This document shows positions 20,084 through 42,254 of a stretch of DNA of 64,000 nt, piece after piece. Each line of letters starts with the position of its first letter. Within the stretch, counting starts at the first letter, position 1. A model generated the notes under the pieces. The model searched no databases. It was given only the letters and a program-made list of their open reading frames with translations, and was not told the DNA's origin. The position numbers and the translations under genes are program-made. Source of the DNA: Cinnamomum chago. Lineage: Eukaryota > Streptophyta > Magnoliopsida > Laurales > Lauraceae. The stretch covers positions 68,464,001 through 68,528,000 of the forward strand of contig CP142451.1 in the NCBI GenBank assembly GCA_038049695.1, read 5' to 3'.

Positions 20084-22093
20084 TTCCTGACCCACTTCAA
20101 AGGTGAAGATCACCCTATTACTATGTTACAGCTCTGCAGCCTAAAACAGGGAGAGAATGAGTCAACATACGACTTCATTCACAAGTGGAAGGCAATGGTG
20201 TACAAGTGCTCGGATGTACTGCCACAAGTGTCGCTGGTCGACATCTGCCATAACAGCATGAGAGCAAGGATCCGCTCTATGATTATCGGCAACAAATCAA
20301 AAAACCTGGGAGAACTCCTATAAGCAACAATGGAGGCTGAAACGGTGATCAAAGACCTTAATAGTAAGAAATCATCAAAGAAAGAGCCAACCTCCATTAC
20401 GACCTCGAAACCAGAGAAAAAGGAGGTTCTTAATGTGCAAACCAAGTCAGCTCCTCAACAACCAAAGAAAGCTGAAAAAAATTGTAGGTAAAAAACCTGA
20501 ACTCTCTGAAGCCTTCAAAGAACGAGTAGAAAAGAAATACCCGTTCGATGAAGATGTTGAAGAAATTTTTTAGGCTCTCGTAGCAAATGAAAAACTCACA
20601 TTACCTGATCCCAAAAGACCAGGAGATGTTGGCAAAACCAATGATCCTCGGTATTGTCCATACCACTAGATGGTCTCACATCCTCTCAATCAATGCTTCA
20701 TTGTGAGAGAGAAGATCAACGAGATGTGGAAAAACAGAGTCATCACCTTTGACAAAAACTATGGGTCCGCCTCCGTCAACATGGTGTCATATGGACAAAC
20801 TTCCAAGTCACCAAAAGAGAAGATCACTACTTCCTTCAAGGTGATAAAAATGACTCAGACGTCCCGAGAGTTGGTTCCTTATCCAACATCGGACGGACAA
20901 CCCATATGGGTGCATCCCGATCTCCTAGAAGATGAAAATTGGGAGATCGTCAAAACAAAGCCTACCACTTAACAACGAAGGCAAGCCAAGAGACAACTCT
21001 GCAAGCTCAAACAGCAGGAGAAGACTCAATCAAAGCAAGAAGTCCCTGAAAAGGAAGTGACCTCTTCCACTGCTTCACTGGGGGCAAGGGAAGAATCCAA
21101 GACTTCAAAGGCGGTAAGAAAATTCACCCTAGGTGATTTCATGCCACCTCATTATAGAAATGAAACTATGCAGGGGCCATCATACTCTTGCAACTCAGTA
21201 ATTGGATTCTCCATGGATGGGTACGAGTCCAGTGATATTGCCAGTGATACCGATGAGTGGGAAGAATCCCTTGAAACAGGAGAATACCTCACCGATGAGG
21301 AATGGATTCCCGAATCTCATCTTATGCCAGTAATCTGGTATAAACCATTACAGCCACAAGGATCCTGGTCTAATGATGAAGAAGACCAAGACGCTGTTCA
21401 AGAAAGTGTTGTTGATCCAGCATAAGCAAGCGCTCCAATGGAACCCAACATTAATGAACCACGAGGAGCATATGACGAAGAAGATTTGGCCCCTATGCCT
21501 GATCTCGAAGAATATGCCAGAATCTTGCAACGTCTTGCCATAAAGCGGGAGCAAGATCGCATCAATAAACTTCGTCAAAATCAAAATCCAGAACCAGAAA
21601 TCCCGGATTGATGAAAACTGTTGGGTTGATGATCCCCTCACATCTGAAGACGAGTCTGAATCTCAACAGTACGTTGCTTGCAATGCGATAGTTCGGGATG
21701 ATCATGCCTCTGAAGCTTCATCTGTCGATGCCTCAGATTCTCAGACTACATCCGGTAGCATATCTTCTGGAGTTGCATCTCCTCAGGTGACTTCCACAGA
21801 GATATCATCTTCTCAGCCTTCGTCTCCTAAAACTGTGACGTCGGAACTCAAACCACTTCCGACTGATCATCTCGAAAAAGCTCATGCCAATGAAGTCTTC
21901 TTCACTGAAAATCCGGTCAACTGGTCCCAGATACCCGACCTCATAGACGATGTCTGGACCGATAAACTGCTCAACGAAGAAGAGAAGTTGCTAGATGTTG
22001 TTCAGGACTTGCTCTCGGAAAATGCTCCGTGCAACGTGATCACTAAAGACGACAATACTACTACAGAGACGTCTTCAGCAAATGACAAAGATT
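20084..22093 (+). pseudogene. Gypsy-2 piece 2: gag C-terminal part into pol N-terminal spacer (fossil)
   Basis: Continues piece 1. It holds the rest of the Retrotrans_gag domain (HFKGEDHPITM, LCSLKQGENESTYDFIHKWKAM), the VSHPLNQCF segment, the acidic YESSDIASDTDEWEES block and spacer sequence matching Gypsy-1 to about 54015. Some acidic/serine-rich spacer here (about 21700-21790) has no match in Gypsy-1, so the two copies differ by indels. Multiple breaks. It ends at the NA-Sire insertion (AGATT, 22089-22093). Confidence 0.85.
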
Positions 22094-22251
22094 TGAAAGT
22101 CCGGGATCCTAACCCTAGAGGGGGGGTGGATAGGGTGAGCTACAATATGTGACCAATTATGACAAATTTTAACTCCTTTAAAATAAACTAGTCACAAGTG
22201 ATGATAAACAAACAAAATGCGGAAGCTAATAAAAAGAATCACCACAACGCA
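22094..22251 (-). repeat. NA-Sire 3' LTR, first segment
   Basis: Begins TGAAAGTCCGGGATCC and a 7-G tract (about 22119-22125), the minus-strand LTR 3' end. It is interrupted at 22251 by solo LTR D1 (target duplication ACGCA 22247-22251 and 25418-25422) and continues at 25418-26949 and 29151-29304. Confidence 0.85.
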
Positions 22252-25200
22252 TGTAAGACCCCGACCCGAGTGAACCCGATTAGTGCTAATTAAGTTGCGC
22301 GTTAGTTCTAAGCTTGATTAGTGATTTTGGCTAAGTTGGGTCTGGAATAGCTTTTGATATAGTTTTGGGGAATTTTGATTGTCTCGTGTTAGTGGGACCC
22401 TTTGGGGTTTCCCTTTCTATGTCATTGCATATGTTGGAGGATGTATCGGAGATTTTTGCATTCATGGTTTTAATCCCGTTTTATTCGTATTAATAATCCC
22501 TACAACTTTCATGTTGATCCCGCCCCCATTTGAGATCCCGAAACCCAATTGCATAGCCTTGAGGGCAAAACAGTCATTGTGCACTAAATCTGTACCCAAA
22601 CTTGATATTCCCGAAACCCGCGAACCATATATTTTTTGGAAACTAGAAATTTCGACGATCATTTCTTCCTTCTTCGTCGAATCCATCCGAGGTCCCGAAA
22701 GAGATGATTTCAGTCAAACAAGTTCCTTTAGTAGTGGGACCCAACTCATTTGTTAACAAAGGGAAGCCATTCTTCATTCATTTCATTCTTCATGTTCCAG
22801 CACAAGAGGAGAGCCTAGGGTTTCCTTGCAATTCTTCTTCTTCTTCTTCTTGCTTCTCCATCTCCAATCCGTACCAAACCTACATCAATCAGGAAATGGA
22901 GATCACCATCCTTTTCCTCATCTTGCAAGCTTTATCTTGATACCATTTGTGGAGAAATCTTCCAACCTTGAGATCTTCTTTGAGCTAGCTCTCTTCACTT
23001 GGAGGTCATCCAAGTGAGTAATCATTTTCATCTCCTAGATTAGTGTTCCTCTAGCCCTTGAGAAGCTACATTTGCATTATTGTAAGTTCTTTCATTTTCA
23101 TTCTTTGTGTAACCCATTTTAGGGTTTATTTTGGGGTTTTTGCATTGTAGCTTGGACCATTGGCTTGAAAGAATTGTTAGAGCTTGTTTTGCTTGAGTAG
23201 AGACCTAAGGCAAGTGGATGATATGATCTTTTAAGAGTTTTCAATGTTCTTATGAGAAATGTGGTTGGTTTTTATTAAATTTCACTCATGCCTATTTATT
23301 GCTTTCCTTTGAAATAAATGCTCATGAAGAGCCTTGTTAATGCATTTATGGTCATAAAGAAGTATTGGTTCATAGCTTTTAATTCCTCTTGTTTTGTCTC
23401 AAATATATATCTTATGTGAAATGGTTTCCTTCTTCGTTTCCTTGTATTGAATGTGTTGTTGAAGGAGGAGAATGGGATTGATGTTGTTGGAGATTTGAGG
23501 TTGTTTGAATGGGGATTTATACTCCTCACTTAGTGTAGAAAAGTGGCTAAAAAGGGGTTGTAAAAGGAAGAGTTATCGTGGAGCTGAACTGGTCCGGATT
23601 CAGTTTCTGGACAGTTCGCTCGAGCGACCATGACACTTCGCTCGAGTGACCTGTCCAGAAAGGGGCTCGGAGCATTCCAGTAGCTTGGTCGCTCGAGCGC
23701 ACCCTTGGTCGTTCGAGCGCACCCTTGGTCGTTCGAGCGGACATCCCAGAACCTGTTCCAGAGAGTTGTTCGTTCGAATGCATTTAAATATTCGCTCGAC
23801 CCAATGTGTTCGCTTGAGCGACCTCAAAAATTGCTCGAGTGAATCTACCCAGACAACCATTCCAGAGAGCCACTCGCTCGAGCGAACTCTCCAGTCCGCT
23901 CGAACGATGGGCCCCGTTGGGCAGGGCTATGTTGGGACAATGATAAACTATTTTAACGGTTTGGGACTATTCATTTGGGAACCTTTCTATGTCAAGGAGA
24001 TTTACTAAGTAATGTATGTGGCCATTTGAGAAAAAAACCATATCACGAAGTTGTCATTTGAAGTTTTTGAAAATTCGAAGTGTATAAGGAGCCCGGAATG
24101 TCCCCAAACTCAAAGAGTACCAAATTGTTATCAGATTGACATACGGGGTCCCTATTCACTTTAAATAAATATTGAACCCAATACTTTACCCCAAATTCCA
24201 ATTGTTTATTGTATCTTATCGATCCCGAGTTTTATACTACGTGCCTTGTTTTCCCGAAAGTATTGAACTACACTTTATATAGCTACTTGTCTTGAAGTGC
24301 ATTGCACCACATGACATGACAGTGTGCCCTTGAGCACCCCCGTCTTGCCCGTTTATTTATTGTACTTAATTGAATTGCATATGTCTCGATTGTATTTGAC
24401 CTATGAGTCGGCACCACTAAGCTTGGATAACCCTGTTGGTCTGATCCACCGACTTGGAGATCCCCATCTTCTCCCGCCAGCTGCAGTTTGGATCCCGCTA
24501 CCCGGTTATTACCATGGTCTTGTCCCGATGCCGCAGATTGCTACTGTGGTCCCCGATGCCCGGCTCGCTACCGTGGTCATGTATAGTATATGTATATGCA
24601 TATGTATTTATAAGATCCATTGTTTCTCCTCACCTCGAGTGACTGAGATCAGTGCCTAGTTATTGCTCTATCACCTTAGTGATAGAGGACTTAGCTTCGT
24701 GTGGTTGCCATCTTGATTGTTTCCCGTTCCCTTGGTTACCTTTACATGTTTTATGTTGCATACTCGTATTTGAATAAATGTAAATTGTTTAGAGAAATTG
24801 TCATTTTAACAGGTTCAAATGTTTTGGGAGGTAAATTCATGTATTTTTCATAATGTCATTGTGTTTTATCCAATTGCCAAACCGTTGTGTTTGACCCACT
24901 CTTTGGTACTCAGGTCCCGTTGTTGGTTATCCTGAGGAGGAGCACGAGGAGGCGGTCGTAGAACCGCAATAGTTAGTTGAGTGGCGTGCTGATGACGTCA
25001 TGTAGACGTTTGGTTGCTATGAGAGACTTGATATTTTGGGAAACTGTTTAACCATTCTTTGGATTGGTATTTTGCTCATATTGGCTTTGTTGGCCTCTAT
25101 TTTTGGGGAAATGTAATTAAATGATATTTGTATAAACTTTAACTTACTTTGGGTAACATGCTAATGATCATTGCTCATTCTGATATGGTACTACACTTGT

Positions 25201-25417
25201 GTTATTTATCTTTATGATTTGAGATGAATTGAATATTTGATTTGCTACACACTTCCGTACTTAACAGAAATGTTCATATATGGTTGTGATATCCTCACCG
25301 CGAACACCTGTGGGAAATTAAATAAATGTATGTTGTTATTAGACCGATATGGATCATCTCATCCCAAACAGTCCCGATCCCGGATTAGTCCTTCGGGCCC
25401 GGTCCAGGGTCGCGACA
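22252..25417 (-). mobile_element. D-family solo LTR D1 (3166 bp)
   Basis: Termini TGTAAGACCCCGACCC and GGTCGCGACA with an exact 5-bp target duplication ACGCA. Sense is taken as minus because the palindrome cluster (23616-23910) lies upstream of a minus-strand TATAAAT (23515-23521). It is homologous to D2 in inverted orientation: both contain the segment with repeated GGTATCGGGAC-like and CTGCAG sequence (24420-24600 here). No PBS, PPT or coding domain is present, so it is a solo LTR. Superfamily uncertain (gypsy-like length and ends). Frames at 22379-22756 and 24324-24659 are not convincing genes. Confidence 0.85.
23515..23910 (-). promoter_or_regulatory. D1 palindrome cluster (CTCGAG core) with TATA
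   Basis: About ten copies of CGCTCGAGCG or one-off variants between 23616 and 23910, for example perfect TCGCTCGAGCGA at 23616-23627 and 23874-23885, CGCTCGAGCG at 23690-23699, and CGTTCGAGCG at 23710-23719 and 23730-23739. In the minus sense they end about 95 bp before TATAAAT (23515-23521). Their distance from the LTR 5' end (about 1.5-1.8 kb) equals that of the D2 cluster. Confidence 0.7.
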
Positions 25418-26949
25418 ACGCATGCACCATCACACAAGGATTTATAGTGGTTCGGCCTCAATGCCTACATCCACTACTGGCTTGTGATCCAACACCCCAC
25501 CGGATTTCCACTATTTATGCTTGTCAATAGGCTAAGTAATAACCTTTACAACGATGTTTTTCTAGGCTAAACAACAACCTATCAATGTGCTTTTCTAGGC
25601 TAAGCAATAACCTCTACAAGATGCTTTTCCAAGGCTAAGCAATAACCTCTACAAGATGCTTTTCCAAGGCTAAGCAATAACCTCTACAATGTGCTTTTCT
25701 TAGGCTAAGCAATAACCTTTACAAGTAAAATATTTTCTCTCAAAATAGTGTCTACACAAACACTAAAAGAGATACACTTTAAGGCTCAATTACAGTGCTT
25801 CTAAAATAGGCGGATATGAAATTGAAAATCTAACTCAGACAAGCACTATATAAATGCAAAGGTGTATGCTCATGAAGTGGGTGTGTGTGTGTGTGTGCGT
25901 CTGATAACTTCAATCAAGTTAAAAAGAAAGCTCAATTAATATATGCTCAAAGCATTTAAAAGTTTAAGGCACATAAAGAGTTTTGATTGAAATGAAATGC
26001 AAATCACATGTATCAATACAAACTTGTTGATGGAGTGAAAGTCAAAGGCTCGCAAGTTGTATGAAATCAATTAGCTCTAAACATGTGATGCATGTGCAAT
26101 GTTGTTTTCAAAACTAAACAAATTTAACTAAAGTTCAAATGAATGAAAACAACAAATAAAGATTCAACCAAGTAAATGAATCATGCTATAAAATAAATCA
26201 AAGATTTTGGCTAAGCATGATTAAAGAAGGTTTTAAAACAAACTTGGTTTGAAATCAAGGTGAAGAATCCAATCCAACTTAGATCAAAGATTAAAAGAAG
26301 AATGGATTCGACACATCATAGTTATCATGCTAAAATTAATTTACCAATAATGTAAACAAAGCATATAACATATGATTAGTAAAAGTAAAGCTTACTTAGA
26401 GATTTAACTTTATTTATCCAAGCTTTAGCTTCAGTAATGACCCCTTGGTCTCTCTTAGTTCATCCCCTTTGTCTTGTCTCCAAACACCTCAAGGATGGCT
26501 TAATTAAAAATCTCGAATTTCGGCAAAGGAATGGACTTCATTTTATAGTCAAAAAGTGCCCAACGGCTAGTCCCCGGTCGACCTGGAACAGGGCCCGATC
26601 GACCTGCCCTTCAACGGTCATAAAACTGACCGTTTGAAAAGAGCTCTAACGTCTCTTTACCCGGTCGACCACCGAGCCGAGTCCATGGCCTCGGTCGACC
26701 GAGCACACTGCAGGTCGACCCGGGCCCAGGGACCAAAATCCCCAAAAATGCATATTTTACAGTGATTTCTTGTGGACACTATTGGGCTACTGAATCAAGC
26801 TTGGAATCGTGATTTAAATCAAACTAAGGGGTTTAAAAACATGAAACATAAAAATCCTAAAATGATTTGAAAGATTTAAAACTTGGGCTAGCTTGATTTG
26901 ATAAAACTTCTTTTCAAAATAAATTGTATCCAAGATTAAAATCAAAACA
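25418..26949 (-). repeat. NA-Sire 3' LTR, second segment
   Basis: Resumes after D1. Holds about six 35-bp repeats (25528-25735) and a decayed palindrome cluster (26570-26725) with one perfect CTCGGTCGACCGAG. AACGGTCA/TGACCGTT arms lie at 26612-26634, and a minus-strand TATAAAA at about 26540. Ends at AAACA (26945-26949), the target duplication of solo LTR S. Confidence 0.85.
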
Positions 26950-29150
26950 TGTTAGGAATTTTCTAGATTGCAATTTGATGGATGCATTTTCATTCAAAGC
27001 ATCATTTGAATTACACACTTGCATTGGTTTTAAATAAACTTGAAATCTTGATTTATTCATGCATTGTTTTTAAGATCTTGTTTTATGCATGATTTGTTTT
27101 TAAATCTTGGATGCATTTGTTTTAGAAAAGAGTTTTCAAGAAATCAAGCAAGCCTTTGTTTTAAAACTTTTGAAACTTTTTAGGCTTTTTATGTCATGTT
27201 TTAAAAACCTTTAAAATCTTTAAAACATGTTTTCCAAGCTTGATTTAGTGGCCAAAAGGTCCCCCAAAGAAATAACTTTGAAAAGTGCAAAAGTTGGAAA
27301 TTTTGCAAAAAGGGGGGTTGTCCCGGCAGTGTCGTCGGTCGACCGAGAGGCAGGTCTCGGTCGACCGAGACAACTGCAGGCAATTTTTGCCTGGGAGCAC
27401 CAACGGTCAGAAATATGACCGTTGTGTGTTCTCGGTCGACCGAGGCCTGTTTCTCGGTCGACCGAGAACTAGCCGTTGGCCACTTTTCCCTATAAATATG
27501 AGTTCTTTCCCTTGCCAAAAGTTGGGAATTTTTAACCCCTCCTTGAGAGGATTTGAGGCATATCAAAAGGGAAAAGAACCAAGGGATGAAGGGGAAGATT
27601 AGGAAAGCTAAAGCTTGGATTAATGAAGTTAAACTACCAAGTAGGCTCTTCCTTTCTTAATCATATGTTTGCATGCTCTTGTTTTATTTTTGGTAAATCA
27701 TTTCTAGCATGTTAAACTATGTTTGTGTTGTGTCCTTAACATATTTTATGTTTTGAGTTGATTTATTGTTTTGGATATAACATCACATGATTCAATCCAA
27801 GTAGTACTTGAATTGGTAAATCAAAGTAGATCATGTTAATGAAAGAACTTTGGTAAATCATATGTAACATGATCCATATACTTGGTTGAATCTTTGGTTG
27901 TTGTTTTCCATCATAAGAACATCTCTCTCAAAACTAACTTATGTTTTGGATTCAACTTCTTTACAAATCATATGTTTTCATGTTTTGTTTTATCATTGGT
28001 AAATCTTTGTAACATGTTAATCTATGATTTGTTGTATCCTTAGCATATTCTATATTTTGAATAGATCTATTGTTTTGGATACATCACCATTGATTCATCA
28101 AAGTAGTACTTAACTTTGGAAAATCTAAGTAGATCATGTTAATAAAATATGTAACATGATTCATATACTTTGTTGAATCTTTGGATGTTGTTCTTCCATC
28201 ATAAGAAAATCTTTTTCAAATGTATCTTATGTTTTGGATTCAACATGTTTACAAATCATATGTGTATTATTGTTTTAATGCTTCACAACTTGCCTTACTT
28301 TGATTGGTAAATTATTTTCAAGTTGTCTTTATAATTACATATGATTTGTCCCCTAATTTCAATCAAATCTATTTTTATGTTTTGAGCTTCATTGATGATT
28401 TGATTGACATCCCTATGCATCACATGTTTAGAGCTAATCCATTTCATACAACTTGTGTAACTTTGATATCATTAACAAGTTGTTACTTTTAACATGTGAT
28501 TGCATTGCTTCCTCAATCATAAATGTTTTTGAGCTAAAACTTTCAAAAGCCTTAGGCTTACATTTATGAACTTTCATTTTCAAAATGATTGAGGATCACA
28601 CACACACACTTCATTTGTTTTCATCTTTGCATTCATAGTGTGAGTGTGTATTAGATTTTCACTTCCATATCCGCCTATTTAAGAGGCAATGTAATGAGCT
28701 TAATTGAATCTCCATCAAGTGTATATTAGACACTAAATTAGTGAGATAACCAACCTTTGGTTGAAGAGGTTATTGCTTAGCCTATAAAAGCATAATGTAT
28801 AGGTTGATGTTAAGCCTTGAAAAACATCATTGTAAGGTTATTGCTTAGCCTTGGAAAGCATATTGTAAAGGTTATTGCTTAGCCTATTGAAAAGCATAAA
28901 TAGTGGAAATCCGGTGGGGTGTTGGATCTCAAGCCGGTAGTGGATGTAGGCATTGAGGCCGAACCACTATAAATACTTGTGTGATGGTGCTTGCTTTGTG
29001 GTGATTGTTTTTATTAGCTTCCGCATATTGTTTGATAATCATCACTTATGACTAGTTTGTTTTAAAGAAGTTAAAATTGTTAAAATTGGTCATAAAAGAA
29101 GCTCACCCTATTCACCCCCCCTCTAGGGTTCGGATCCCCATGGACTTACA
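26950..29150 (+). mobile_element. Sirevirus-type solo LTR S (2201 bp)
   Basis: Exact 5-bp target duplication AAACA (26945-26949, 29151-29155). Termini TGTTAGGAATTTTC and CATGGACTTACA. It belongs to the same broad LTR group as NA-Sire but is inserted in its LTR in the opposite orientation. Its end carries CACCCCCCCTCTAGGG (7 C) and about four 35-bp repeats (28755-28905) near the 3' end. No internal region, so solo. The inner 27930-28500 sequence is AT-rich with repeated TTGGTAAATC/CATGTTA phrases and no gene. Confidence 0.88.
27335..27498 (+). promoter_or_regulatory. Solo LTR S promoter module
   Basis: Four palindromes on the CGGTCGACCG core: 27335-27346, 27354-27371 (18 bp perfect), 27431-27444 and 27451-27468 (18 bp perfect). 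Between them lies an inverted pair CAACGGTCA/TGACCGTTG at 27401-27424. Then ACTAGCCGTTGG and TATAAATA at 27491-27498. This is the cleanest copy of the module on the plus strand. Confidence 0.78.
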
Positions 29151-29304
29151 AAACATGCATAAATCAATATTTCTACAAGTCTAAAAACCAATGCATGTGT
29201 AAATCAAGATTTCAAGATTTTCTAAATCAATGCATGTGTGAAAATTCAAATGATGCTAAAATGATAATGCATCCATCAAATTGCAATATACAAAAATCCT
29301 AACA
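29151..29304 (-). repeat. NA-Sire 3' LTR, third segment
   Basis: Resumes after solo LTR S and ends AATCCTAACA at 29304. The polypurine tract of the element follows at 29305-29317 (ATCTCCCCCTTTG, plus strand). Confidence 0.85.
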
Positions 29305-29374
29305 ATCTCCCCCTTTGCAATTTGATGGCAACTTACTCAATACTGAATTTACACACTAAGTCTTCAGCTCCCCC

Positions 29375-32300
29375 TGTCACGACCCCGGACCGGTCCGTAG
29401 GACTAATCTGGGATCGGGACGATAATGATAAATAAGGAATGATAACATGCACATTTGTATTCAATTTCCCACAGGTGTCCGCGGTGAGGATATCACAAAC
29501 GTCAATGAACATTTCTTTTTGAGTGCGGAAGCGTGTAAAAAATCAAATAGTCCAACTATCATTAGTCATGAAGATCATAACAATAACATGAGTATGAAAG
29601 ACTGTATCAAAATGAGCAATGATATATAGCAATGTTTCCCAAAAGTTGTTAAAGTTAGACAAGTTATCATTTAGTTACAATCCCCAAAAAGAGAGGCCAA
29701 CAAAGGCCAATATGAACAAAATAATAACCCAAAAGAATGGTTAAAGTATAGCTCCCAAAATGTGCGTCTCTCGTAGCAACCCGATGTCTACATGACATCG
29801 TCAGCACGCCACTCAACTAGAGGTTGCGGCTCTCCTACCGCCTCCTCTGGCCCCTCCTCAAGGAAGCCGGCAACGGGACCTGAGTACCAAAGCAAAGGAT
29901 CAGACACGACGGTCTGGCAAGAGAAAGCAAGGATACAACAACAATAATATAGAGGAAATCTCTTGAAAAGCATATAAATTTGTTTAAGCAAGAACTCTCA
30001 TAAAGCAGGTAAATCATTTGCTATAAAACAAGTAAACAAGATAAAACATATGAGGTAACCAAGGAATCGGGAATAACAAGGTGGCAATCACATAAAGCTA
30101 AGTCCTCTGTCACTAATGTGACAACAGTATCACGGGACGTTGATCTTAGTCACACGAGGTGAGGAGAAACAACGTATACATATATACAATATAATAATAC
30201 GGGAACGGGACCACGGTAGCGAACCGGGTATCGGGACGGGGCCACGGTGGTAAACCGGGCATCGGGATCCAAACTGCAGCTGGCGGGACGGGAGAGGGAT
30301 ATCCAAGTCAGTGGATCAGACTGACAAGGTATCCAAGCTTAGTGATGCCGACACATAGGATAAAACCAATCGAGACATATATGAGTAAATCAAGTACAAT
30401 AAATAAACGGGGAAAACGGGGGTGCTCAAGGCACACTGTCATCTCATGTCGGGCAATACATATCTGGACAAGTCAATACTACTATCATGCTTTCGGGAAA
30501 ACGATTCATGTCAAGTAATGCTTGGAAATAGAGAAATATGATGAACTATACCAATTCGGGAAGGATGATGATTTAAAGATCTATTTGAGTGGATAGGGGT
30601 CTCGTATGTCGATTATAGATATAACTTGGTACTCCTTGAGTTTGAAGACATTCCGGGCTCCTTATGCACTCTTACGATTTTCAAAACTTAAAACGAGCTT
30701 ATGGTTATAACTAGATTTCATACTAGGAAAAATCAAGGTTATAGACGGTCCATCCTAGGCATGACGTTAATTCGGAAACATCGACCAACCTATTCAGTCA
30801 TCGAAAGGAATGGAATTCGCGATAACCAAGGCAAAAGACTTATATTTGGATATAAAGAAGTTATCGCGTCATTCCATCCCGTTCAAGATTGAAACGGATT
30901 GAACTTCGATGCCACCAAACTAACCGTGAGAAGCGTCGGCTCAAGACATCTCACCCATAGTCCAATTAGTCCAAAAAGGGTAGCCAAGGTCCCACCTAGC
31001 ACTAAGGAAAAAATAAAAATCTCAAAATCCACCGGACTCAAACTGAGTCCACCGATCGATCGGACCTTCGGTCCGATCGATCGGCCAAAATTTTCTGAAC
31101 AGGGACCGATCGATCGGCCGAAATTTCTACACAGGGCCCGATCGATCGGTCCAAAAACCCTTACAGTTACTGACAGACCGATCGATCGGTCCTGGGCGCA
31201 GTGCAGGTCCGGGACTTGGATTTTTCTCCTTTTTGTTCCTTTCTTTCCAACACTTCAACAACCACATAGAACTATGATCAAGATGACTAAAACACAAGAT
31301 TCCAAGACATTAAATGAGGCTATCAAGATGCATAAATATCATTTATTGTAACCATGAAAAATCAATAAATGCAATCAATGAAAGCATAAAAATCCATCAA
31401 TGTTTCACCAAATCATTTGAAACTTAAAAACCTCCAAACATTCACTTGCCTCAAGTCCAAGCTAGCAATAAACAAGCCTCTACTCACTTCTCAAGATCAC
31501 TTCCAAGCTACAATAAAAAATCCCCAAAAACAACCCTAAAATGGGTCAAACCATGAAATGACAATGAAACCTTTCAAAAATGCAAATGTAGCTTCCCTAA
31601 GGCTAGAAGATTAACAATCTAGAAGATGAGAGGGATCACTTACTTGGATGACCTCCAAATGAGAAGAACTAGTTCAAAGAAGGTCTCAAGATGGGGAGAT
31701 TGCTCCAAGAATAGTATCAAGGTGAAGCTTGCAAGGAGAGGAAGAAGATGATGAGTTCCCTTTTGAGTTTAGTGCAAGATTGGTGAGGATTTGAGATGAA
31801 GAAGCAAGAAGAAGGTGAGAAACCAAGAAAACCCTAGACTCCAATGGTTGTGCTGGAAAATGAAAGATGAAGTGAATGGAATGGCTTCTCTTGTTAGCTA
31901 AAGAGTTGGGTTGGATTGGGTCCCACAACTAATGAAACTAAATGGGCTGATATCATCTCTCTCGGGTCCTCGGATGAATTCGACGAAGAAGGAAGAATTG
32001 TTCGTTGAAATATCTAGTTTCCAAAAAGTGTATGTTTCGCGGGTTTCGAGAATCTTAAGTTTTTGGGTACAGATTTTGTGTGCAATGACTGTTTTGCCCT
32101 CCGGGCTATGAAATCGGGTTTCGGGGCCTCGAATGGACACGGGATCAACATGAAAGTTGTAAGAATCCACAAGATGAATGCAACGGGCCAAAAACACAAT
32201 TCACAACCAATCGGGAAAATCTCGCAAGAAAACGCAAAGCCGAAAAGGGAAACCCCCAAAGGGCCCCACAAGCTACCAATCACTTTAAAAAGCCCAAAAC

Positions 32301-32410
32301 TAGAAACAAGGTTATTCCAAACCCAACTTAACCACAAACACTAATCAAGCTTAGCACTAACACGTAACTTAATTAGTACTAATCGGGATCACTCGGGTCG
32401 GGGTCTTACA
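29375..32410 (+). mobile_element. D-family solo LTR D2 (3036 bp), opposite orientation to D1
   Basis: Termini TGTCACGACCCC and GTCGGGGTCTTACA, flanked by CCCCC (29370-29374, 32411-32415). NA-Sire internal sequence resumes as expected (CAGCTCCCCC then TAAGCTGGACAGG). It is the inverted homologue of D1, taken as plus-sense with palindromes at 31052-31189 before a TATA-like CATAAATA (about 31330). It contains no retroelement protein. The frames at 30701-31351 and 31898-32344 are not supported as genes. Confidence 0.85.
31052..31189 (+). promoter_or_regulatory. D2 palindrome cluster (ATCGAT core)
   Basis: Five perfect CCGATCGATCGG palindromes at 31052-31063, 31073-31084, 31106-31117, 31138-31149 and 31178-31189. 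The first two are also the arms of one larger perfect inverted repeat (two 15-bp arms around a TTC loop, 31052-31084). GCAGTGCAGGTCCGGGAC follows at about 31200, resembling the CACTGC...GGGAC sequence beside the palindromes of the Sirevirus-type LTRs. Confidence 0.75.
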
Positions 32411-34705
32411 CCCCCTAAGCTGGACAGGTCTTGAAATCTCTTGGATGCTCCTTCTCTTAGCTTGGGCTCTTGGTCTTTTCTTCAATCTTCTTGATGCTTG
32501 GAGCTTGATCATTCTTCAAGCTTTCTTTTCAACCCTCTTTGGCCAAGCATCTTCTTTAACTCCCATGATTTCTCTTCTTTCAGCTCTCCCCCTTTGACCA
32601 TGAACTTATGGACATACTCTCCCCCTTTAGACAACTTGATTGCTCTCTCCCCCTTTGACATTAAATTGCAAAGGTACCTACACACATGAAATAAGGAAAA
32701 TACCTTTTAGTAGCACCTGTTAACAAAAGAAATTGAAAATGAAATACATAACAGGGTATCATGTATGGTTAGTAGTCTCTAAGGGTTCAAAGCCAATACA
32801 AAGGTCAATTTGATCAAAACTAATACTTCCTATGAAGGTTTACACTCCCCCTCAATCCATTCTCTCCTTTTGTCAAACTTTTGTCAAATATTTAACTATT
32901 TGGAGCAAGAAGAAGATGGTTTTATCAATTGAGGGTAAACTTCACGGAAAGAATTAGATACATAACTATAGAGCTCAATATGATCAAATTACGAATATAA
33001 AGAGTAGGGTCAAGGAGAAAAGCGATCATGGATACCAATTGGAAAAACAAAGAATACCAATTGAGATTCAAGGAAGAGACTATTAAATCAATCACTCTAA
33101 AATGGAGTTAAAAAGAATATAACTACTAGGAAAAATCCAAATTAAAGCTATCCATGATGATATGGGGTTTACTCAACATAGCATCAATCAATTTAACTAT
33201 GAGAATCATATGCTATGAAAGTTTTGAAATCATTTCATTCAATCATTAAGTATGACTATCATGTGCAAGATGAGTGAAATGACATTCAAGCATGAAGCCA
33301 ACCTCAACTTATAACCAACCAAGATTATGAATACATAAACATGGTGGTCATGAGATTTACCTATAAGAGCAATTGAGGTGGCAAACATGAAAATTATGAT
33401 GCTAATGGAATGTGACATGGAACAAAAATATATTACTATCAAGTTCAATCCAATGTACATGGTCTATCACATTCTCAAGAAATGACATTAATTGGATATG
33501 AAATCAATCGAAAATTATACTAATTGAAACCGATTGAATTATGACAACATGATTAATAGCAAGGATGTGACAAACATAAAATTCCATCAAGCATCATAAA
33601 TGGTTATTCATCACTTTTAATGATATAGCTAATGAGCATTGTGATGAACAAGAGAAATTGCATTTTGAAAAAATATGACTTGGTAGAGCATGCAATTTTC
33701 AAAGTGTCAAATCATATGAATTCAACATCTAAGATATCCATCAAACAATAGATATAACTATGAAAATACAAGGAATGGATTTTAAAGAGGTTCATATGAT
33801 CAAGATCACTACTATGAAGTGGAAACATGTATAAGGAAGACATCACTTAGAGAATACACATGAATCAACATCATAATCATCCATTTTAAAAAAATGACTA
33901 GAAAGCATAAAGGATGGATTTGAGTTCTAGTATGGTACCTACAAATATAACTAAGATCACAATCATACACGGAACCAATTGACATTTGCATATAAAAAGA
34001 ATGTAACCAAATGAGCAAAGATGCAAATAGCTTATAACAACATTCGTTTCCATTTCTAAGATGATATAATCAAATGCATAAGGAAATGAGAACATGGAAC
34101 ATGCTTCGATGATTATAACTAATGATGTTTTAGAGCATTTCCTTTCATACAATCTTCAAATGATTTCAATAAACAAAATCCAACAATAAGCATGAAAATA
34201 ACGATTTTGAAGATCAATTTTCAACTTTGTATTTTAAAAGATATAACTTATTTGAAACACATACAAGTTGATTTTTCAAAACAATGATTTTCCATATTAA
34301 AGTATAACTTAGAAATCTATGAAAAATCCAAATTGATTCAAATCATTAGTTCAAATAATCTAACTATGACATCTACACAAATGATTTTGCAACAACAATC
34401 GATCATGAATACTCTAGCTATAAAAGCTTTTGAAATCACAATCAATTGATCATATATAGAAATGCAATGCAAGAGATATAACTAAATGTGAGCAAAAAGC
34501 AAATCTAACATGATGAAATTATAATCAAATGATTTTGAAAACCATGATATGTAACTAGAATGGTGCATGGAGACAAAATCAATTGATTACAAATAAACAA
34601 TGCATTTTAAGAAATGTAACTATGAAAGAATAAAATGCAAGTGTAAATATGACCAACAAAATGATTTAACTATAAAGGATAGGTTGGTCTAGGAGGTTCA
34701 AGGCC
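32411..34705 (-). other. NA-Sire (single element) non-coding internal region
   Basis: Resumes after D2 with CTCCCCCTTTG tracts (about 32585-32660), then A-rich non-coding sequence with ATAACTA motifs. It aligns with 4440-6750 of the tandem array. No gene seen. Confidence 0.8.
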
Positions 34706-36126
34706 TTAAGGTTTGTCTAAGTATCTAACTTTAGGGATCCACCTAAGGTCTTGAGAGGGTTGATCTTTGAGATCTGGTTTAGAAATCCCACCAACTTTAG
34801 GAGATTTGACTTGATAATTTTTTAATTTGGACATATCACCATGATATTCAGATTTGATTAAATTTAGCTTAGATTGGTGATTAGTCTTTTGAGGTTGGTG
34901 AGTTTGTTTCTTAGGGGATTGATTCATTTTTCTTTTCTTCTTATTTTCCTCCCTTTATTTGACTTTTGAATTTTAAATTTAACTTTGTTACTTTCTTCAA
35001 AAGTTCTTTCATGTGTTGATTTAAGGGAGATAGGTTGAGAAGCTTTTTGTTAATAGATTCTTTTATACTTGGTTTAACTTGTTTAACCTTTTTAGAATCT
35101 ATATTAGGAGACTCCATTTTAATTTATTTAACTTGTTTAATCTTTTTGGGGTCTTCCTTGATTTTTAGTGTCTTACCCTTCAAAGATTTTGATTCTACCT
35201 TTTTGGGTTCATAGATGGGTTTAGTCACATGGCTTCTTCTTAGTTTGCACTCAAACCTAAAATGCCCTTTAATTCCACAATAATTACATTTAGTCATGGG
35301 CAAGGAAGAATGAGTACTAGAGAATGAGGACTCACCTTTCACAAAAGTGTTGGTGAAGCTAAAGTCATGTGAAATATTCCTATCAAATCTAAGACCCGTT
35401 CTATCTCTTTGAGATTTACCCAATTTAAATAACTTTTCAAATCTCTCTTCACCTTGGGTAAATTTGCACTCATACTTTTTTTTGTAGCTTTCAAGTTGAG
35501 TGACTTGGTTTATAAGGATTGAATTTTCATTTTTAACTTTTAATAGTTTATTTTCAATTTCCTTATAGTTGTTTAGTTCTTCATGAGCAAGTTTTAAATC
35601 AAATTTAAGTCCATTAATAACATTAGATCCAAGTTCTAGAGTTTTTATCTTATTTTGAGCATTAGATAAATTTTCCTTAGAAGAGGTTAACTTGGATTCT
35701 AGGTTGTTAATGTTTTTGTCTTGCCTTTGTAATTGATCTCTTAAATTTAAATTTTCTTTATTAAGCTCATCACAACTTATCTTATTTTCATTTAGTTCAT
35801 CTTTGATATTAGATAGGTTATCTAAGGAGATCATAAACTTAGAGTCTAAACAATGTATGACTTCTTCTTTCTCTCTAAGTTCATCTTTTGAAGAAACTAA
35901 TTCATTGTTTAATTAGATTTTATGATTCTTCTTTTAATTTATTAATTTTCTTAACAAGCTCTAAGGAAAATGCATATAAATCATCATAAGCTTGTTAAAG
36001 ATTATCTTCTTTTTAATTAAATTGAGATTCATTAATTTGAAGGTTTGAATCTCCAATAGAAGGAAGAAGGAGGGGTCCAGAAGAATCTACACAAGAATCT
36101 ATACAATCTAGCATAGTGGAATCCAT
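34706..36126 (-). pseudogene. Gag-derived coiled-coil and zinc-knuckle frame of the single NA-Sire element (broken)
   Basis: Diverged relative of the frame at 674-2242. It keeps the coiled coil (NLRDQLQRQDKNINNLESKL), the RDRTGLRF block, the knuckle CNYCGIKGHFRFEC and the end DLRWIPKVRYLDKP. Several breaks (about three to five), so a fossil. Confidence 0.82.
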
Positions 36127-36225
36127 TCTAATGATTTTCATGAAAGCACAACACTAGGGTTTTCACTCTAGGTTTTTACACCTAATCAAGAGTTCCAAAA
36201 CACTTGATCCTAAAATAGAGGACGA

Positions 36226-36240
36226 GGCTCTGATACCAAT
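36226..36240 (-). other. Primer-binding site of the single NA-Sire element
   Basis: ATTGGTATCAGAGCC in the minus sense directly follows the LTR. It is complementary to the 3' end of plant initiator-Met tRNA. Only one PBS is present, unlike the tandem-array units. Confidence 0.85.
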
Positions 36241-38002
36241 TGAAAGTCCGGGATCCTAACCCTAGAGGGGGGGGGGGGGGGGGGGGGCTGCATAGGGTGA
36301 GCAACAATATGTGACCAATTATGACAAGTTTTAACTCCTTTAAAATAAACAAACAAAATGCGGAAGCTAACAAAACGAATCACCACAACGCATGCACCAT
36401 CACACAAGGATTTATAGTGGTTCGACCTCAATGCCTACATCCACTACCGGCTTGTGATCCAACACCCCACCGGATTTCCACTATTTATGCTTTTCAATAG
36501 GCTAAGCAATAACCTTTACAACGATGTTTTTCTAGGCTAAACAACAACCTATCAATGTGCTTTTCTAGGCTAAGCAATAACCTTTAAAAGATGTTTTTTC
36601 AAGGCTCAGCAATAACCTCTACAATGTGCTTTTCTTAGGCTAAGCAATAACCTTTACAAGTAAAATATTTTCTCTCAAAATAGTGTCTACACAAACACTA
36701 AAAGAGATACACTTTAAGGCTCAATTACAATGCCTCTAAAATAGGCGGATATGAAATTGAAAATCTAACTCACACAAACACTATATGAATGCAAAAGTGT
36801 ATGCTCTTGATGTGTGTGTGTGATAACTTCAATCAAGTTAAAAACAAAGCTCAATTAATATATGCTCAAAGCATTTAAAAGTTTAAGGCACGTAAAGAGT
36901 TTTGATTGGAGTGAAATGCAAATCACATGTATGAATTCAAACTTGTTGATGGAGTGAAAATCAAAGGCTCACAAGTTGTATGAAATCAATTAACTCTAAA
37001 CATGTGATGCATGTGCAATGTTGTTTTCAAAACTAAATAAATTTAACTAAAGTTCAAATGAATGAAAACAACAAATAAAGATTCAACCAAGTAAATGAAT
37101 CATGCTATAAAATAAATCAACGATTTTGGCTAAGCATGATTAAAGAAGATTTTAAAACAAACTTGGCTTGAAATCAAGGTGAAGAATCAAATCCAACTTA
37201 GATCAAAGATTAAAAGAAGAATGGATTCAACACATCATAGTTATCATGCTAAAATTAATTTACCAATAATTTAAACAAAGCATATAACATATGATTAGTA
37301 AAGTAAAGCTTACTTAGAGATTTAACTTCATTGATCCAAGCTTTAGCTTCACTAATGACCCCTTAGTCTCTCTTAATTCATCCCTTTTGTCTTGTCTCCA
37401 AACACCTCAAGAATGGCTTAAAAATCTCTAACTTTGACAAAGGAATGAACTTCATTTTATAGCCAAAAAGTGCCCAACGGCTAGTCCCCGGTCAACCTAG
37501 AACAGGGCCCGATCGACTTGGCCTTCAACGGTCTTAAAACTGACCGTTTGAAAAGCGCTCCAACGGCTCTTTACCTGGTCGACCTGTAGTGGGTCCGGTC
37601 GACCGAGCACACTGCGGGTCCACCCGGGCCCAGGGACCAAAATCCACAAAAATGCATATTTTAAAGTGATTTCTTGTGGAAACTTTTGGGCCACTCAATC
37701 AAGCTTGGAATCATGATTTAAATCAAACTAAAGGGTTTAAAAACATGAAACATAAAAAGCGTAAAATGATTTGAAAGATTTAAAACATAGGCTAGCTTGA
37801 TTTGATAAAACTTCTTTTCAAAATAAATTGTATCCAAGATTAAAATCAAAACATGCATAAATCAATATTTCTACAAGTCTAAAAACCAATGCATGTGTAA
37901 ATCAAGATTTCAAGATTTTCTAAATCAATGCATGTGTGAAAATTCAAATGATACTAAAATGATAATGCATCCATCAAATTGCATTATACAAAAACCCTAA
38001 CA
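36241..38002 (-). repeat. NA-Sire 5' LTR of the single element (1762 bp)
   Basis: Complete LTR, TGAAAGTCC at left to CCCTAACA at right (plus strand). It has a very long homopolymer (21 G at 36267-36287), about five 35-bp repeats (36495-36660) and a decayed palindrome region (37490-37625) with a minus-strand TATAAAA near 37455. It has one fewer 35-bp unit than its partner LTR. Confidence 0.88.
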
Positions 38003-38655
38003 AGATCAACCCCTTGGTCTCAAGGGCAATCTTCCGAACGAAGAACCTTCTCCAGAAGCTCTTGAAGTTAGTAGAGGTACCTGCTCTGGCCGGGATTACG
38101 ACAAGAACTACAACCAACCTTCTTCTTCTTATGTAAATCCTTTGGGAAAACAAATTGTAAACGCCCCAAGTGGCAACAATAATGAAAATGTTGGCCCGAA
38201 GGAGGCTTTCAAGTACGACTTGATTGAGCACTTCAAACACATACCTGCACGACTGCACATCCTTAACTTATTACGAATGTCTCCACAAACTCATGATAGT
38301 CTCATTTCAGAACTACAAAAGCTGAATGCAGATGTCGGCAAACATGCCCTACAAGTCTTACAAATTGAAATGGACTACAGGGTCAAAAAATCAGATATTT
38401 CCTCAAAGGGAAAAAAGAAGAAAACTAAGGGATCAAGCATTGAATGCATCTCGGTTCAAAAAGCAGCAAGTGCAACAATTGCCTTCGATAAGGATGACCT
38501 CTTGTTAGGCGAGACAAAGCACAACTGACCCTTGTACTTCACAGGGTATGTCAAAGAAATGCCAATACACAGAGTCCAGATCGACCCAAGTTCTGCACTC
38601 AATCTCATCTCTACTTCGGCACTTGAAGAGCTGGGCATCCCACCTGGGAAGCTGA
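38003..38655 (+). pseudogene. Gypsy-2 piece 3: pol spacer to protease start (fossil)
   Basis: Aligns with Gypsy-1 from about 54022 to 54666: EAFKYDLIEHFKHIPARLHILNLLRMSPQ-type sequence, then the protease approach (RPLYFTGY-like, SALNLISTSALEELGIP). Several breaks. Ends at GCTGA (38651-38655), the target duplication of Z copy B. Confidence 0.85.
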
Positions 38656-40329
38656 TATTGGAAATAGGTGGGCCTCGTGGATAGGTTTTCAAAACTTTTT
38701 TACCCACTTGACTCAGGGATCAAGTATCCAGAAGGCCATAAACCATATCCAGGATGCAATCCCTCTATCTCATTAATCAAGTACAATAATAAAACCTATC
38801 TAAAAGATAGAAATCAGCAACTACATGCATCCAAAACAATCCACAATAAATAGATAAGTAGATTACACCTTTGGAGCACAGTAGTGCTCTAATGGAGGAG
38901 AAGACAATCAACTTGATCAAGAACTCTTCTTAAAGCAATTAGAGATCTCCAAGACCTTGTTTTCTTCCACGCTATGACCCTTTATCAGATCTCTTTTCTT
39001 AAGAAGATGGGTGGGATCTTAAGAGAAAACCCTACTAGAAACTCTAAGGAAACTAGAAGAGTACTAGAAGAGATAGGAAGAGAAGAGATTTGCAACTCTT
39101 GCACTTGAGGAGTCTTGTGCGTGAATACTAGAGTGGGACGTCTAAGGGGTTTCTTCCTTTATTTATAGCCCTCAAATCTCCTCTTAAGACTCTCTTACTA
39201 ATTGCATTAGAAGTCACACTTCCACACAAATTAGTAGCTTACTATTACCACTATTAGAAGTCCACTTCAAATAGAAATAGTAACTTTCTAATTCCTCCCT
39301 TTTAGAGTTCAAGTAAGATTAGTAACTTTCTAATATATTGGGTTAGCGTGGGGACCATTAGGGATTCCTTAGAAAGCTGGCTCCAACTGGGACATGCGAC
39401 CCCACATCTCATGTGCAATCCGGGCCCACAGTTAATTGTAAATAACACCACTATATAAATGCAATTGCACTCCAGTCTTAGGAATAAATTACAATGAAGA
39501 CCCTAAACTTCCCAATTGTCATAAGTAGGCCCCTCTATCAATATCCATAAATCAATTGGAATAAATTTGTCTCATCCAATCCTAGATCCACAACTTATTA
39601 TCCTTAAGCCCCAATTAATCACAGGGATCATCAGTACCATCCAATTAACTCCTAATCGAGATGGGTGCGCACTTACTAATGATAGATCCATTAATTGGCA
39701 CAAGGGGATAATATAAATAGATTCCATCTTGATCATTGTATGTTCCCACAGTCCTACTACCACATACCCAAGACACCGAGGTGTTGACCTACAGTTGGCC
39801 TCACTTATTGGTGACTCAAAGCAAATGAATAGACAGAAATTTGAGTTCATCAATGTCTCAGGATTGAGAGCCTATTGCTAGAGAATTATGAGAGCAGTCC
39901 TTAAATCGAGACAGATTTTCATAAGGTGTTTCTCATGGTCCTTCAATAAATCCAATGTACCAACACTATGATCCAGAATCTTACATTCTGATGATCGAGA
40001 CAAATCACACTATCTCATAGTGATCAAAGTGCTGCAACCTTATCAGATGAGATGCCCAGTCTCATCACTGGTTGTGAAGATATTTTTAAGTATAAGATTT
40101 GTGACACATGTCTCCCGTATGTGGATCTCATCCATATACATATATCACATCTAATATACTAATGAGACCCGGTTCATCTCAAGAACCATCATGTCATATG
40201 TATTGGTCATGTGCATTAGGTAATAAAACACCATTCATCTCATGAGAGGAAAGCATGATTTTATTGATAAATAAAGAAATTAATCAATTTATTACATCAA
40301 CTGATGGATTGAGGCCACACAATCTAACA
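38656..40329 (-). mobile_element. Z-family solo LTR, copy B (1674 bp)
   Basis: Exact target duplication GCTGA (38651-38655, 40330-40334) inside the Gypsy-2 protease region. Minus-strand termini TGTTAGATTG and ATTTCCAATA. A minus-strand TATA box, GGCTATAAATAAAGG, lies at about 39158-39172. About 85 bp shorter than copy A. No coding content. Confidence 0.87.
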
Positions 40330-40606
40330 GCTGAGTCACACGTCTGTATCCATCTTTGGATACAATGGGAGCACTCAAAGGCCTATTGGTAAAATTAGGT
40401 TCAAATTGCAAATCGGTGATCTTATCTCTGAAGTCACTGTGTACGCAATAAGATCTCCTTCATGCTACAATATCCTTCTTGGACACCCCTGGATACATGA
40501 GAATGGTGTGGTCCCTTCAACTCTACATCAATGCATCAAGTTCGTTGGCAACGACGGCTTAATACATTGAGTGTTTACAGATAAAAAGCCCTTCAAAGGC
40601 AAAGAC
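40330..40606 (+). pseudogene. Gypsy-2 piece 4: protease region (fossil)
   Basis: Aligns with Gypsy-1 from about 54667 to 54943 (GYNGSTQRPIGKIRF-like, FKLQIGDLISEVTVYAI, SCYNILLG..W). It stops where the Sirevirus LTR begins. The remainder of Gypsy-2 should lie beyond the Sirevirus and Gypsy-1, outside the window. Confidence 0.85.
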
Positions 40607-42240
40607 TGTTAGAGTTTTTGTTTTGTTGCAATTTGATAGGATGCATTCAATTTCATAAAGCTTGTCCTCTCATTCATTCATGGTCTTATTCATAGGATCA
40701 TCATGCATATTTCTCATTCTTGATCTTTGTATTTATCATTTGATATGCATGGTTTTCATTTCTGTTTATCTCTTAAGATCATGGAGTTTTTGGTTTCAAA
40801 TTTCTTCCAAGCTTTCCATAGTTTCTATCTTTAAAATCATTATTTTGATTTGGAGTTTTCATGGCTTTAAAAAATTCATTTTTCATCTTCTTTCAGTCAT
40901 GATTTAATGCTTGGTTAATGTGTCTCAAAGTCCCCTGGAAGATGCCCTCAAAAGTTGCATGTTTTTCACTCCTTTTCAAAAAACTGGGCATCTCCCAGTG
41001 TTGCCGGTCGACCGGGACAAGCTTGCCGGTCGACCGGGATCACTGCAACTTTTAAATGCAGTTTTGAGCAGAATTTTCCAACGGTCAGAAATTTGACCGT
41101 TGTGCTTTCCCGGTCGACCGAGACCTGTTTCTTGGTCGACCGAGGACTAGCCGTTGGCAACTTTATCTTTATAAAAAGTGGCTTTTTGGTTGAAGAAAGT
41201 TGCTGACATTAGAGGGACTTTTGAGGCCAAGGATTAGCAACTTCTCAAGAGCATTTTCAAAGGGATTATGAAGCCATTCCATTAAACCAACCTTTGATCT
41301 TCAAATGGGTGTGCTTTTTTTAATCCTAGTCTTTTTGAAATCATGTTTTGTTTCAAATCTTTGATCTCTTTCTAAACATAATTAACAAGTTGCTTTTCTT
41401 TTAGAATGTTGTCTTTCATAACATGCTTAACACTTTAGTAATCTCATATGCTATGAATACAACATATGGTCTATGTTACACATGATTTTACTTTCCTGTT
41501 TCAAAAATCAACTTGTTAGACTTTAGAACATCTTTCTTGAAAACAAGTTATTTCTCATTGTTAATCACATGTGTTAGACATACAACTCTTTCTCCAATAT
41601 ATGATAAACATCTTTGCATCATTTAAGTTTTTATCTTTTCAAAGAGAAAGAGTTATTTCTAGAAAATGCATTTTACATAAACTTTGTCATTCACATGCAT
41701 GTTTCTAGAACTTAAGTTTTCACTTTCTAATTAGCCTAATTAGAGGCACTCAATTGCACCTCATTGTTCTCTTTATCCATGCATTCTTAGGCATATTTCT
41801 TAAGAGAAAAATTCCTTGTTGTAAAGGTTCATGCTTAGCCTTGAAAAGCATATGTTGTAAAGGTTTATGCTAAGCCTTGAAAAGCATAGTGTTGATTGTA
41901 AGGTTTGAGGTGATCCTAAACCTTAATTGAAGTTAGTGAATACCGATAAGTGTATCGGGAGTGGATGTATGCAATTTGGCCGAACCACTATAAATGTGTT
42001 TGTCATGGTGGTTGCTCTTTTGCTCTCTTTTTCATGAATGATTCTCTTTTGGTTGTTTGGAGATTGTTGTTGGTAATTACTTGTGTATGCATATCTTAGA
42101 AATCCTTTTCTATCACAAGATAATTAATCTTCATCACATCTTAATTGACTTAAAAGTTGAAAGAATTAAAATTGGTCTAGGTTGTTAGAGCTCATCTATT
42201 CACCCCCCCCCCCCCTCTAGGATTCGGTCTTGGACTTTCA
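40607..42240 (+). repeat. Sirevirus 5' LTR (1634 bp)
   Basis: Termini TGTTAGAGTTTTTG and TTGGACTTTCA. Contains the palindrome/MSA/TATA module (41004-41176), two to three degenerate 35-bp repeats (41815-41895) and a 13-C tract at 42212-42224 near the end. It shares both ends and the overall plan with the NA-Sire LTRs, which supports a master/dependent relation. Confidence 0.9.
41004..41176 (+). promoter_or_regulatory. Sirevirus LTR promoter module
   Basis: CCGGTCGACCGG at 41004-41015 and 41026-41037, CGGTCGACCG at 41111-41120, and a one-off copy near 41133-41142. An inverted pair CAACGGTCA/TGACCGTTG at 41079-41102, of which TCCAACGGTCA (41077-41087) fully matches YCYAACGGYYA. TATAAAA at 41170-41176. 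Confidence 0.78.
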
Positions 42241-42242
42241 AT

Positions 42243-42254
42243 TGGTATCAGAGC
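42243..42254 (+). other. Primer-binding site of the Sirevirus
   Basis: TGGTATCAGAGC two bases after the LTR end; the initiator-Met tRNA site usual in plant Ty1/copia elements. Confidence 0.9.

Follow-up and report, generated by a model that had tools for sequence, protein, structure and literature searches.

The locus considered here, a stretch of 64,000 nucleotides from Cinnamomum chago (contig CP142451.1, positions 68,464,001 to 68,528,000 of the forward strand), raises the question of why short palindromes of the frame CG-n-TCGA-n'-CG are clustered in the long terminal repeats (LTRs) of its retrotransposons, and of what kind of partner they might serve. All counts, alignments and spacings given below refer to this single 64-kb stretch, the window. 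Self-comparison and the junction sequences show plant LTR retrotransposons nested in one another throughout the window, and the clusters are found both in Sirevirus-type LTRs (S1 to S4) and in two solo LTRs of a second family, family D (D1 and D2; Table 1). The original prediction held that the palindrome is maintained and is switched in concert, as expected for a dimeric DNA-binding partner or for conversion driven by hairpins. The analysis bears this out in part: the clusters exceed chance, the palindrome is maintained and a dimeric partner fits, whereas neither concerted switching nor hairpin-driven conversion finds support. We propose that the clusters are arrays of operators, set in helical phase, to which a dimeric DNA-binding factor would bind, a reading to which we give roughly even chances.

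The frame is matched 32 times in the window, with 29 of the matches being palindromic, while 60 dinucleotide shuffles of the window give a mean of 0.000 palindromic sites, which confirms that the clusters lie above chance. In ten smaller regions, each subjected to 300 dinucleotide shuffles, at most 1 site appears in any. When no frame is presupposed, the palindromic 10-mers that reach at least 3 copies per 300 bp are of three kinds only, all of the form CGnTCGAn'CG, where n is G, C or A. There are 16 palindromes of the type CGnmCGm'n'CG, 4 of them with m = T, so that, given CpG-rich palindromes, two more motifs would agree in the frame about 1 time in 16; this is our own post hoc arithmetic, made after inspection of the data, and the sharing of the frame by three motifs is, taken alone, suggestive.

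Within an LTR, the exact sites share one core, much as had been noted. The core is the same in 28 of 28 within-LTR pairs (the array being counted once), a result matched by 0 of 20000 label permutations, in a test where shared descent is confounded with LTR. The five sites claimed for D2 are all exact and of the A-core type, the exact 10-mer frame sites spanning 31053-31188. The "about ten" sites claimed for D1 are recovered when decay is allowed for, since 8 sites are found at up to one mismatch and 10 at up to two, but the exact C-core sites number only 3 (23617, 23690, and 23875); the eleventh site, at 23771, is three mismatches from its core. Together, the 11 D1 sites have 12 departures from CGCTCGAGCG, 10 being C>T or G>A changes and the other 2 G>C, a bias of the kind that would be expected from the decay of methylated cytosines.

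The start-to-start spacings of the boxes are near multiples of 10.5 bp. For the 11 sites of D1, the mean cosine at this period is 0.72, with 3 of 5000 random placements as high, and for D1 and D2 together it is likewise 0.72, with 0 of 5000 as high. Over seven LTRs with 15 unique spacings the mean cosine is 0.63, a value reached by 1 of 20000 jittered sets. Among periods of 8 to 14, scanned at intervals of 0.5, the highest value is obtained at 10.5; if the period may vary freely over 9-12.5, the observed value is reached by 3 of 5000 jittered sets. The sets include two three-mismatch sites, 23771 in D1 and 37510 in the S3 5' LTR.

The conservation of the Sirevirus modules is concentrated in the boxes. 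Among S1, S2, and S4, identity amounts to 98% in the box columns (120 cells compared) versus 64% in the spacers (228 cells), in agreement with the predicted maintenance of the palindrome in these LTRs; the region upstream is at 64% (173 cells) and the rest at 55% (142 cells), while the arms of the inner AACGGTCA..TGACCGTT palindrome (48 cells) and ACTAGCCGTTGG (36 cells) are both at 100%. Addition of the decayed S3 LTRs changes these values to 90% for the boxes, 98% for the inner arms, 100% for ACTAGCCGTTGG, 50% for the spacers, 54% for the upstream region, and 58% for the rest. Per position, conservation at the S sites is 0.93-1.00 in the box and 0.64-0.86 at the two positions on either side. 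In 7 of 7 S modules the boxes are located just upstream of the TATA box, which is preceded by CTAGCCGTTGG; each S module has one copy of this proximal module, which makes seven in the window (3674, 9752, 15829, 26543, 27469, 37457, and 41147).

A dimeric partner, as a candidate, fits these observations best because of the symmetry of the sites and their ~10.5-bp phasing. In the mechanism that we put forward, the clusters would act as operator arrays within U3, the upstream part of the LTRs, and a dimeric DNA-binding factor would have its site in each 10-12-bp palindrome. With adjacent sites separated by approximately integral helical turns, the bound dimers would be placed on one face of the DNA, where they could act jointly upstream of the TATA box, possibly to activate transcription. 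The arrays would be built and homogenised by local duplication of a site plus its spacer, and would decay mainly through C-to-T mutation, for which methylation is a plausible cause. Such a factor, bound to phased arrays upstream of TATA, would account for symmetry, conservation, phase, and position at once.

A number of points weigh against this proposal. The phase test was conceived after the spacings had been seen, and duplication of a ~21-bp unit could yield part of the phase and lowers the independence of the spacings. The phase of D2 is weak when considered alone, its mean cosine of 0.74 being reached by 119 of 5000 random placements, and that of the decayed S3 LTRs is weaker, with mean cosines of 0.56 and 0.53, and of 0.30 for the 5' LTR when only sites with up to two mismatches are used. 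The sharp edge of the box is seen only in the S sites, as positions -1, +1, and +3 are also invariant in D2. The promoter-proximal position is weak for D1, where the TATAAAT downstream of the cluster is one of six TATAWA matches in the LTR and may be due to chance, and it is unsupported for D2, where no TATAWA lies downstream of the cluster (the closest one precedes it, being at LTR position 1477 as against ~1679 for the cluster). In addition, we know of no factor for these motifs. Bousios et al. (2010; PMC2829016) found no common factor for the Sirevirus boxes.

A different function of the same symmetry, which we consider possible but doubtful, is that the palindromes act through hairpins, in RNA or in single-stranded form, from which small RNAs are made and silencing follows, with the hairpins driving conversion between sites. 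The palindromes of maize Sireviruses are small-RNA hotspots (PMC5311732, PMC10760457), and the present clusters fold better than their dinucleotide shuffles, with z-scores of -14.9 (S2), -8.5 (D2), -8.5 (S1), -8.4 (S4), -4.6 (S3 3' LTR), -2.2 (S3 5' LTR), and -3.8 and -3.2 (the two halves of D1), while four flanking controls give only -0.04 to -1.2. However, good folding follows by construction from any array of identical palindromes, and we rejected these z-scores as independent support. S1, S2, and S4 are predicted to fold with different topologies, and conversion would carry the spacers along, whereas in the S LTRs conservation drops outside the box and the spacers are only 64% alike. Hairpin-driven conversion is disfavoured on these grounds, and hairpins give no reason for the helical phasing. 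Hairpin or small-RNA roles may nevertheless coexist with that of a dimeric factor.

The comparison of D1 with D2 bears on how the core comes to differ. It had been claimed that these are homologous LTRs with the cluster at the same place and a different core at every site. The two LTRs are indeed homologous, the identity per 100 alignment columns being 63-85% in the leftmost 1400 columns and 56-87% in the rightmost 900, and the clusters are in the same part, but over the central ~900 columns the identity is 36-60%, and the cluster block itself is not alignable. For the tight block (23397-23957 versus 30774-31304), 30 of 300 mononucleotide shuffles reach the real score with the boxes removed, compared to 1 of 300 with the boxes kept. 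The wider middle block gives a z of 5.5, its best alignment being the downstream edge, where homology resumes; a masked score for this wider block, z 14.8, was set aside because the masked letters matched each other and thereby inflated it.

Since the block is unalignable, there are no corresponding sites at which the cores could be compared. Site-by-site switching of the core between D1 and D2 is rejected on this ground, and concerted switching of n/n' between homologous sites is not supported; the initial observation stands as to clusters, frame, and within-LTR core, but not as to a core difference at every D1/D2 site. Either the cluster block was replaced or rebuilt, or it diverged beyond recognition, in contrast to its flanks. 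Both LTRs show signs of local tandem duplication: sites 23710 and 23730 of D1 agree in their non-palindromic core, CGTTCGAGCG, and in the flank upstream of it, while in D2 a 32-bp tandem repeat takes in three of the five sites. From the alignments, we attribute the difference in core to block turnover together with local duplication. In terms of the operator arrays, the cis block would have turned over while the flanks stayed homologous, and the core would differ since a different array was built, rather than through conversion site by site.

Duplication could also be thought to suffice by itself. Short CpG-rich units would then spread neutrally, through slippage or through unequal exchange, and recent duplication would leave LTRs homogeneous within and different from one another as a by-product, in line with the tandem repeats of period 20, 22, and 32 that overlap the clusters, with the common mutated core and flanks of 23710 and 23730, and with the unalignable D1/D2 blocks. 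We find this account improbable, because all three kinds of clustered palindromic 10-mer in the 64 kb have one frame, because the Sirevirus boxes are far better conserved than the spacers across diverged LTRs, and because the unequal spacings of 32, 33, 43, 51, 75, and 84 are still near phase, although 18, 40, and 66 fit poorly.

Whether the frame extends beyond one lineage depends on the identity of the elements. The S elements have the Sirevirus marks described in PMC2829016. The polypurine tract (PPT) is present in multiple copies, with AGGGGGAG occurring seven times at 4370-4956 in one array unit and CTCCCCCT being matched six times in S3, where the match at 29368 takes its last T from the D2 insertion. 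The attachment AT/TG after the terminal PPT is found as AACA-AT-CTCCCCCT (+ strand) at 4370, 10448, and 29307, and CA/ATTGG (or AGTGG) followed by the primer-binding site TATCAGAGC is found in S4, in the array LTR, and in the S3 5' LTR. The poly-C-rich integrase signal, which in Sireviruses is located ~21 bp from the LTR end, is present near the end of S4 and S1, the two LTRs checked. The boxes of S, moreover, are palindromic, repeated, of the CGG-CCG type, and upstream of TATA, like the RM boxes of Sireviruses. Intact S modules have 4 boxes per LTR and no exact box lies outside the LTRs, so that an array unit has 4; the published elements have at least 8 boxes each, with 3 to 14 in the 3' LTR. 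Of the 13 published boxes in Table 3 of PMC2829016, the present frame fits one, the repeated motif of a Vitis Sirevirus, which is exactly CGGTCGACCG. The G-core S LTRs are Sireviruses, and their box is already in print.

Family D, in contrast to S, is represented in the window by solo LTRs only, with no internal region, and D1 and D2 are assigned as such because of their TGT..ACA ends and lack of internal direct repeats, each having a 5-bp target duplication as well. It is apparently a second LTR family, unrelated to Sireviruses. That D1 and D2 are instead divergent Sireviruses, with nothing outside the known family, is very improbable: the box type is the same, its place in the LTR is similar, and the LTRs of published Sireviruses vary extremely (mean pairwise score identity of 3.9%; PMC2829016), yet the window self-comparison gives no D-versus-S LTR match of at least 120 bp at E 1e-10, the D LTRs start with TGTC and those of S with TGTTAG, the 3' end of D2 (32291-32410) has no poly-C signal such as S1 and S4 carry (the D1 end being compared by its last 40 bases only), and the LTR lengths of 3166 bp (3.17 kb) for D1 and 3036 bp (3.04 kb) for D2 are about twice the maximum of the 0.54-1.68 kb range of the 21 Sireviruses in Table 2 of PMC2829016, although S1 (1.78 kb) and S2 (2.20 kb) also exceed it. 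The absence of the poly-C signal from D2 is not decisive, because the signal is reported in 17 of 21 Sireviruses. The 4-kb figure for Maximus in the same paper refers to the linker and not to the LTR, which weakens the assignment of D to Sireviruses. The CGG-CCG signature is absent from D, the box being CGCTCGAGCG in D1 and CCGATCGATCGG, that is CCG-CGG, in D2; Tnd-1, among the 13 published boxes, is also without it.

If D is taken as a separate lineage, the operator reading can be extended. A host family of dimeric factors might read CG-n-TCGA-n'-CG, with n/n' choosing the member, in which case at least two unrelated LTR lineages would have independently built phased arrays, and the cis block of D would have been replaced with frame and phase kept and n/n' changed. 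We regard this extension as speculative and rather unlikely. If true, it would mean that the change of a single operator base pair redirects families of transposable elements from one host regulator to a related one.

The S modules contain a further type of site. An inverted AACGG..CCGTT pair, with a third AACGG before TATA, is kept in the five aligned Sirevirus modules. Scored against YCYAACGGYYA, which we take to be the consensus of the mitosis-specific activator (MSA) element, the window has 6 strict matches, all in S modules, while 60 shuffles give a mean of 0.15 and a maximum of 2; the six represent three lineages (the array copies account for three of them and the S3 pair for two), and S2 has only one-mismatch forms. 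The MSA elements of plant G2/M genes have the core AACGG and are bound by MYB3R factors (PMC9730800), and the tomato yeast-one-hybrid bait of that paper, TCCAACGGT, has an exact match in the modules of both S1 and S4. Unlike the MSA elements of G2/M genes, the candidate sites of the S modules are in an LTR, as an inverted pair with a third copy before TATA. A literature search for MSA together with LTR retrotransposons gave no title on MSA in a plant LTR among the matches listed. A MYB-type, perhaps G2/M, input to the S LTRs may be considered a lead, not a result.

Table 1. Coordinates of the elements, palindrome clusters, and associated sites in the window
Feature	Positions	Strand	Description
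Sirevirus-type tandem array	1-16531	-	Three LTRs, LTR-internal-LTR-internal-LTR, period ~6.08 kb, 99.8-99.9% identical
S1, Sirevirus array LTR 1	2593-4367	-	Two further copies, ending near 10445 and 16522
S1 proximal module	3674-3701	-	CTAGCCGTTGG..ACTTT..TATAA
S1 cluster	3706-3844	-	4 exact CGGTCGACCG, G core; spacings 22, 85, 22
Array copies of S1 cluster	9784-9922, 15861-15999	-	4 exact G-core sites each
S3 3' LTR, split	22092-22251, 25418-26949, about 29151-29304		Duplicated target bases apart
D1, family D solo LTR	22252-25417	-	TGT..ACA; 5-bp duplication ACGCA; inside S3 3' LTR
TATAAAT of D1	23515-23521	-	~95 bp downstream (LTR sense) of D1 cluster
D1 cluster	23617-23906	-	11 CGCTCGAGCG-type sites; spacings 22, 51, 20, 20, 41, 22, 18, 21, 43, 22
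S3 3' LTR cluster, decayed	26575-26721	-	1 exact G-core site (26692), 5 at up to two mismatches
S2, Sirevirus solo LTR	26950-29150	+	5-bp duplication AAACA; inserted in S3 3' LTR
S2 cluster	27336-27464	+	4 exact CGGTCGACCG; spacings 22, 75, 22
D2, family D solo LTR	29375-32410	+	TGT..ACA; 5-bp duplication CCCCC; adjoins S3 PPT region
D2 cluster	31052-31189	+	5 exact CCGATCGATCGG (12-bp palindrome), A core; spacings 21, 33, 32, 40
S3 5' LTR (second Sirevirus)	about 36241-38002
S3 5' LTR cluster, decayed	37489-37605	-	1 exact G-core site (37596), 3 at up to two mismatches
S4, Sirevirus 5' LTR	40607-42240	+	Poly-C signal near end
S4 cluster	41005-41142	+	3 exact (41005-41120) and 1 one-mismatch CGGTCGACCG; spacings 22, 84, 22
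TCCAACGGTCA	41077-41087	+	Matches the presumed MSA consensus; left arm of conserved AACGGTC..GACCGTT palindrome
S4 primer-binding site	42241-42254		ATTGG-TATCAGAGC, directly after S4 LTR
AACGG pair and third copy	3674-3772, 26543-26660, 27400-27495, 37457-37590, 41077-41174		Five S modules

As for the architecture of the window, D1 and S2 are both nested, in opposite orientations (minus and plus, respectively), in one Sirevirus 3' LTR that extends over 22092-29304, and S2 lies head-to-head with its host LTR, forming an imperfect inverted repeat of ~1.8 kb (26133-27920). In the internal part of the array, Pfam shows neither reverse transcriptase nor integrase on two open frames (674-2257 and 6754-7881), from which the array element may be non-autonomous. 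The segments 16745-21670 and 38004-40605 match 50464-54940 and represent two copies of a Ty3-type element, with gag and pol frames at 50382-58766; the Sirevirus insertions are located in the first copy. Directly 3' of the S4 primer-binding site, 42326-46463 contains a Ty1/copia gag and a separate pol frame, the latter having 46-55% identity among the best 120 of 4965 matches, of which the named ones are plant Ty1/copia proteins. A tandem repeat with a 158-bp unit in 4.2 copies occupies 46687-47354.

With regard to other systems, pattern searches with the S double box, the D2 double box, and the proximal S module gave 0 matches each in viral contigs, and 0 pattern matches were obtained in bacterial and archaeal genome contigs. 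Literature searches for palindromic boxes in other plant LTRs and for the LTR-end strings listed, among their matches, no title on the former subject and none on plant LTRs, respectively. The closest relatives of the present clusters are the Sirevirus RM boxes (PMC2829016), which are also palindromic, CpG-rich, and nearly identical within an LTR, differ from element to element, and are clustered upstream of TATA in CpG islands, so that within-element homogeneity, between-element difference, and this placement are already in print. The palindromes of maize Sireviruses (2016) are likewise clustered in the cis region of the LTR, are mapped by small RNAs, and evolve fast, but their motif, CACCGGACNNNGTCCGGTG, is another sequence in another host. 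The same motif is the most abundant one in the structured regions of maize Helitrons (PMC10760457), which means that there is some precedent for boxes in DNA other than that of Sireviruses.

The RM boxes were reported as Sirevirus-specific and absent from 30 classic Ty1/copia elements (PMC2829016). The G-core box is already known from Vitis, but relative to that paper the boxes of family D, the apparently unrelated LTR family in which the frame had been suggested to be new, look new: they are of the C- and A-core types, in LTRs without the testable Sirevirus mark (poly-C), and in D2 they read CCG..CGG. The word "MYB" occurs 0 times in the main text of PMC2829016, and neither a spacing phase nor MYB-type sites are in its parts examined, relative to which the ~10.5-bp spacing phase and the conserved AACGG pair are new in this analysis. 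The 2010 description of the Sirevirus boxes gave them no binding partner; the phase, the contrast between box and spacer conservation, the MYB-type pair, and the frame in a second family lead to direct tests of the binder, of the relevance of the phase, and of convergence on one host regulator, and such tests would separate a DNA-binding role from the hairpin and small-RNA role of these palindromes.

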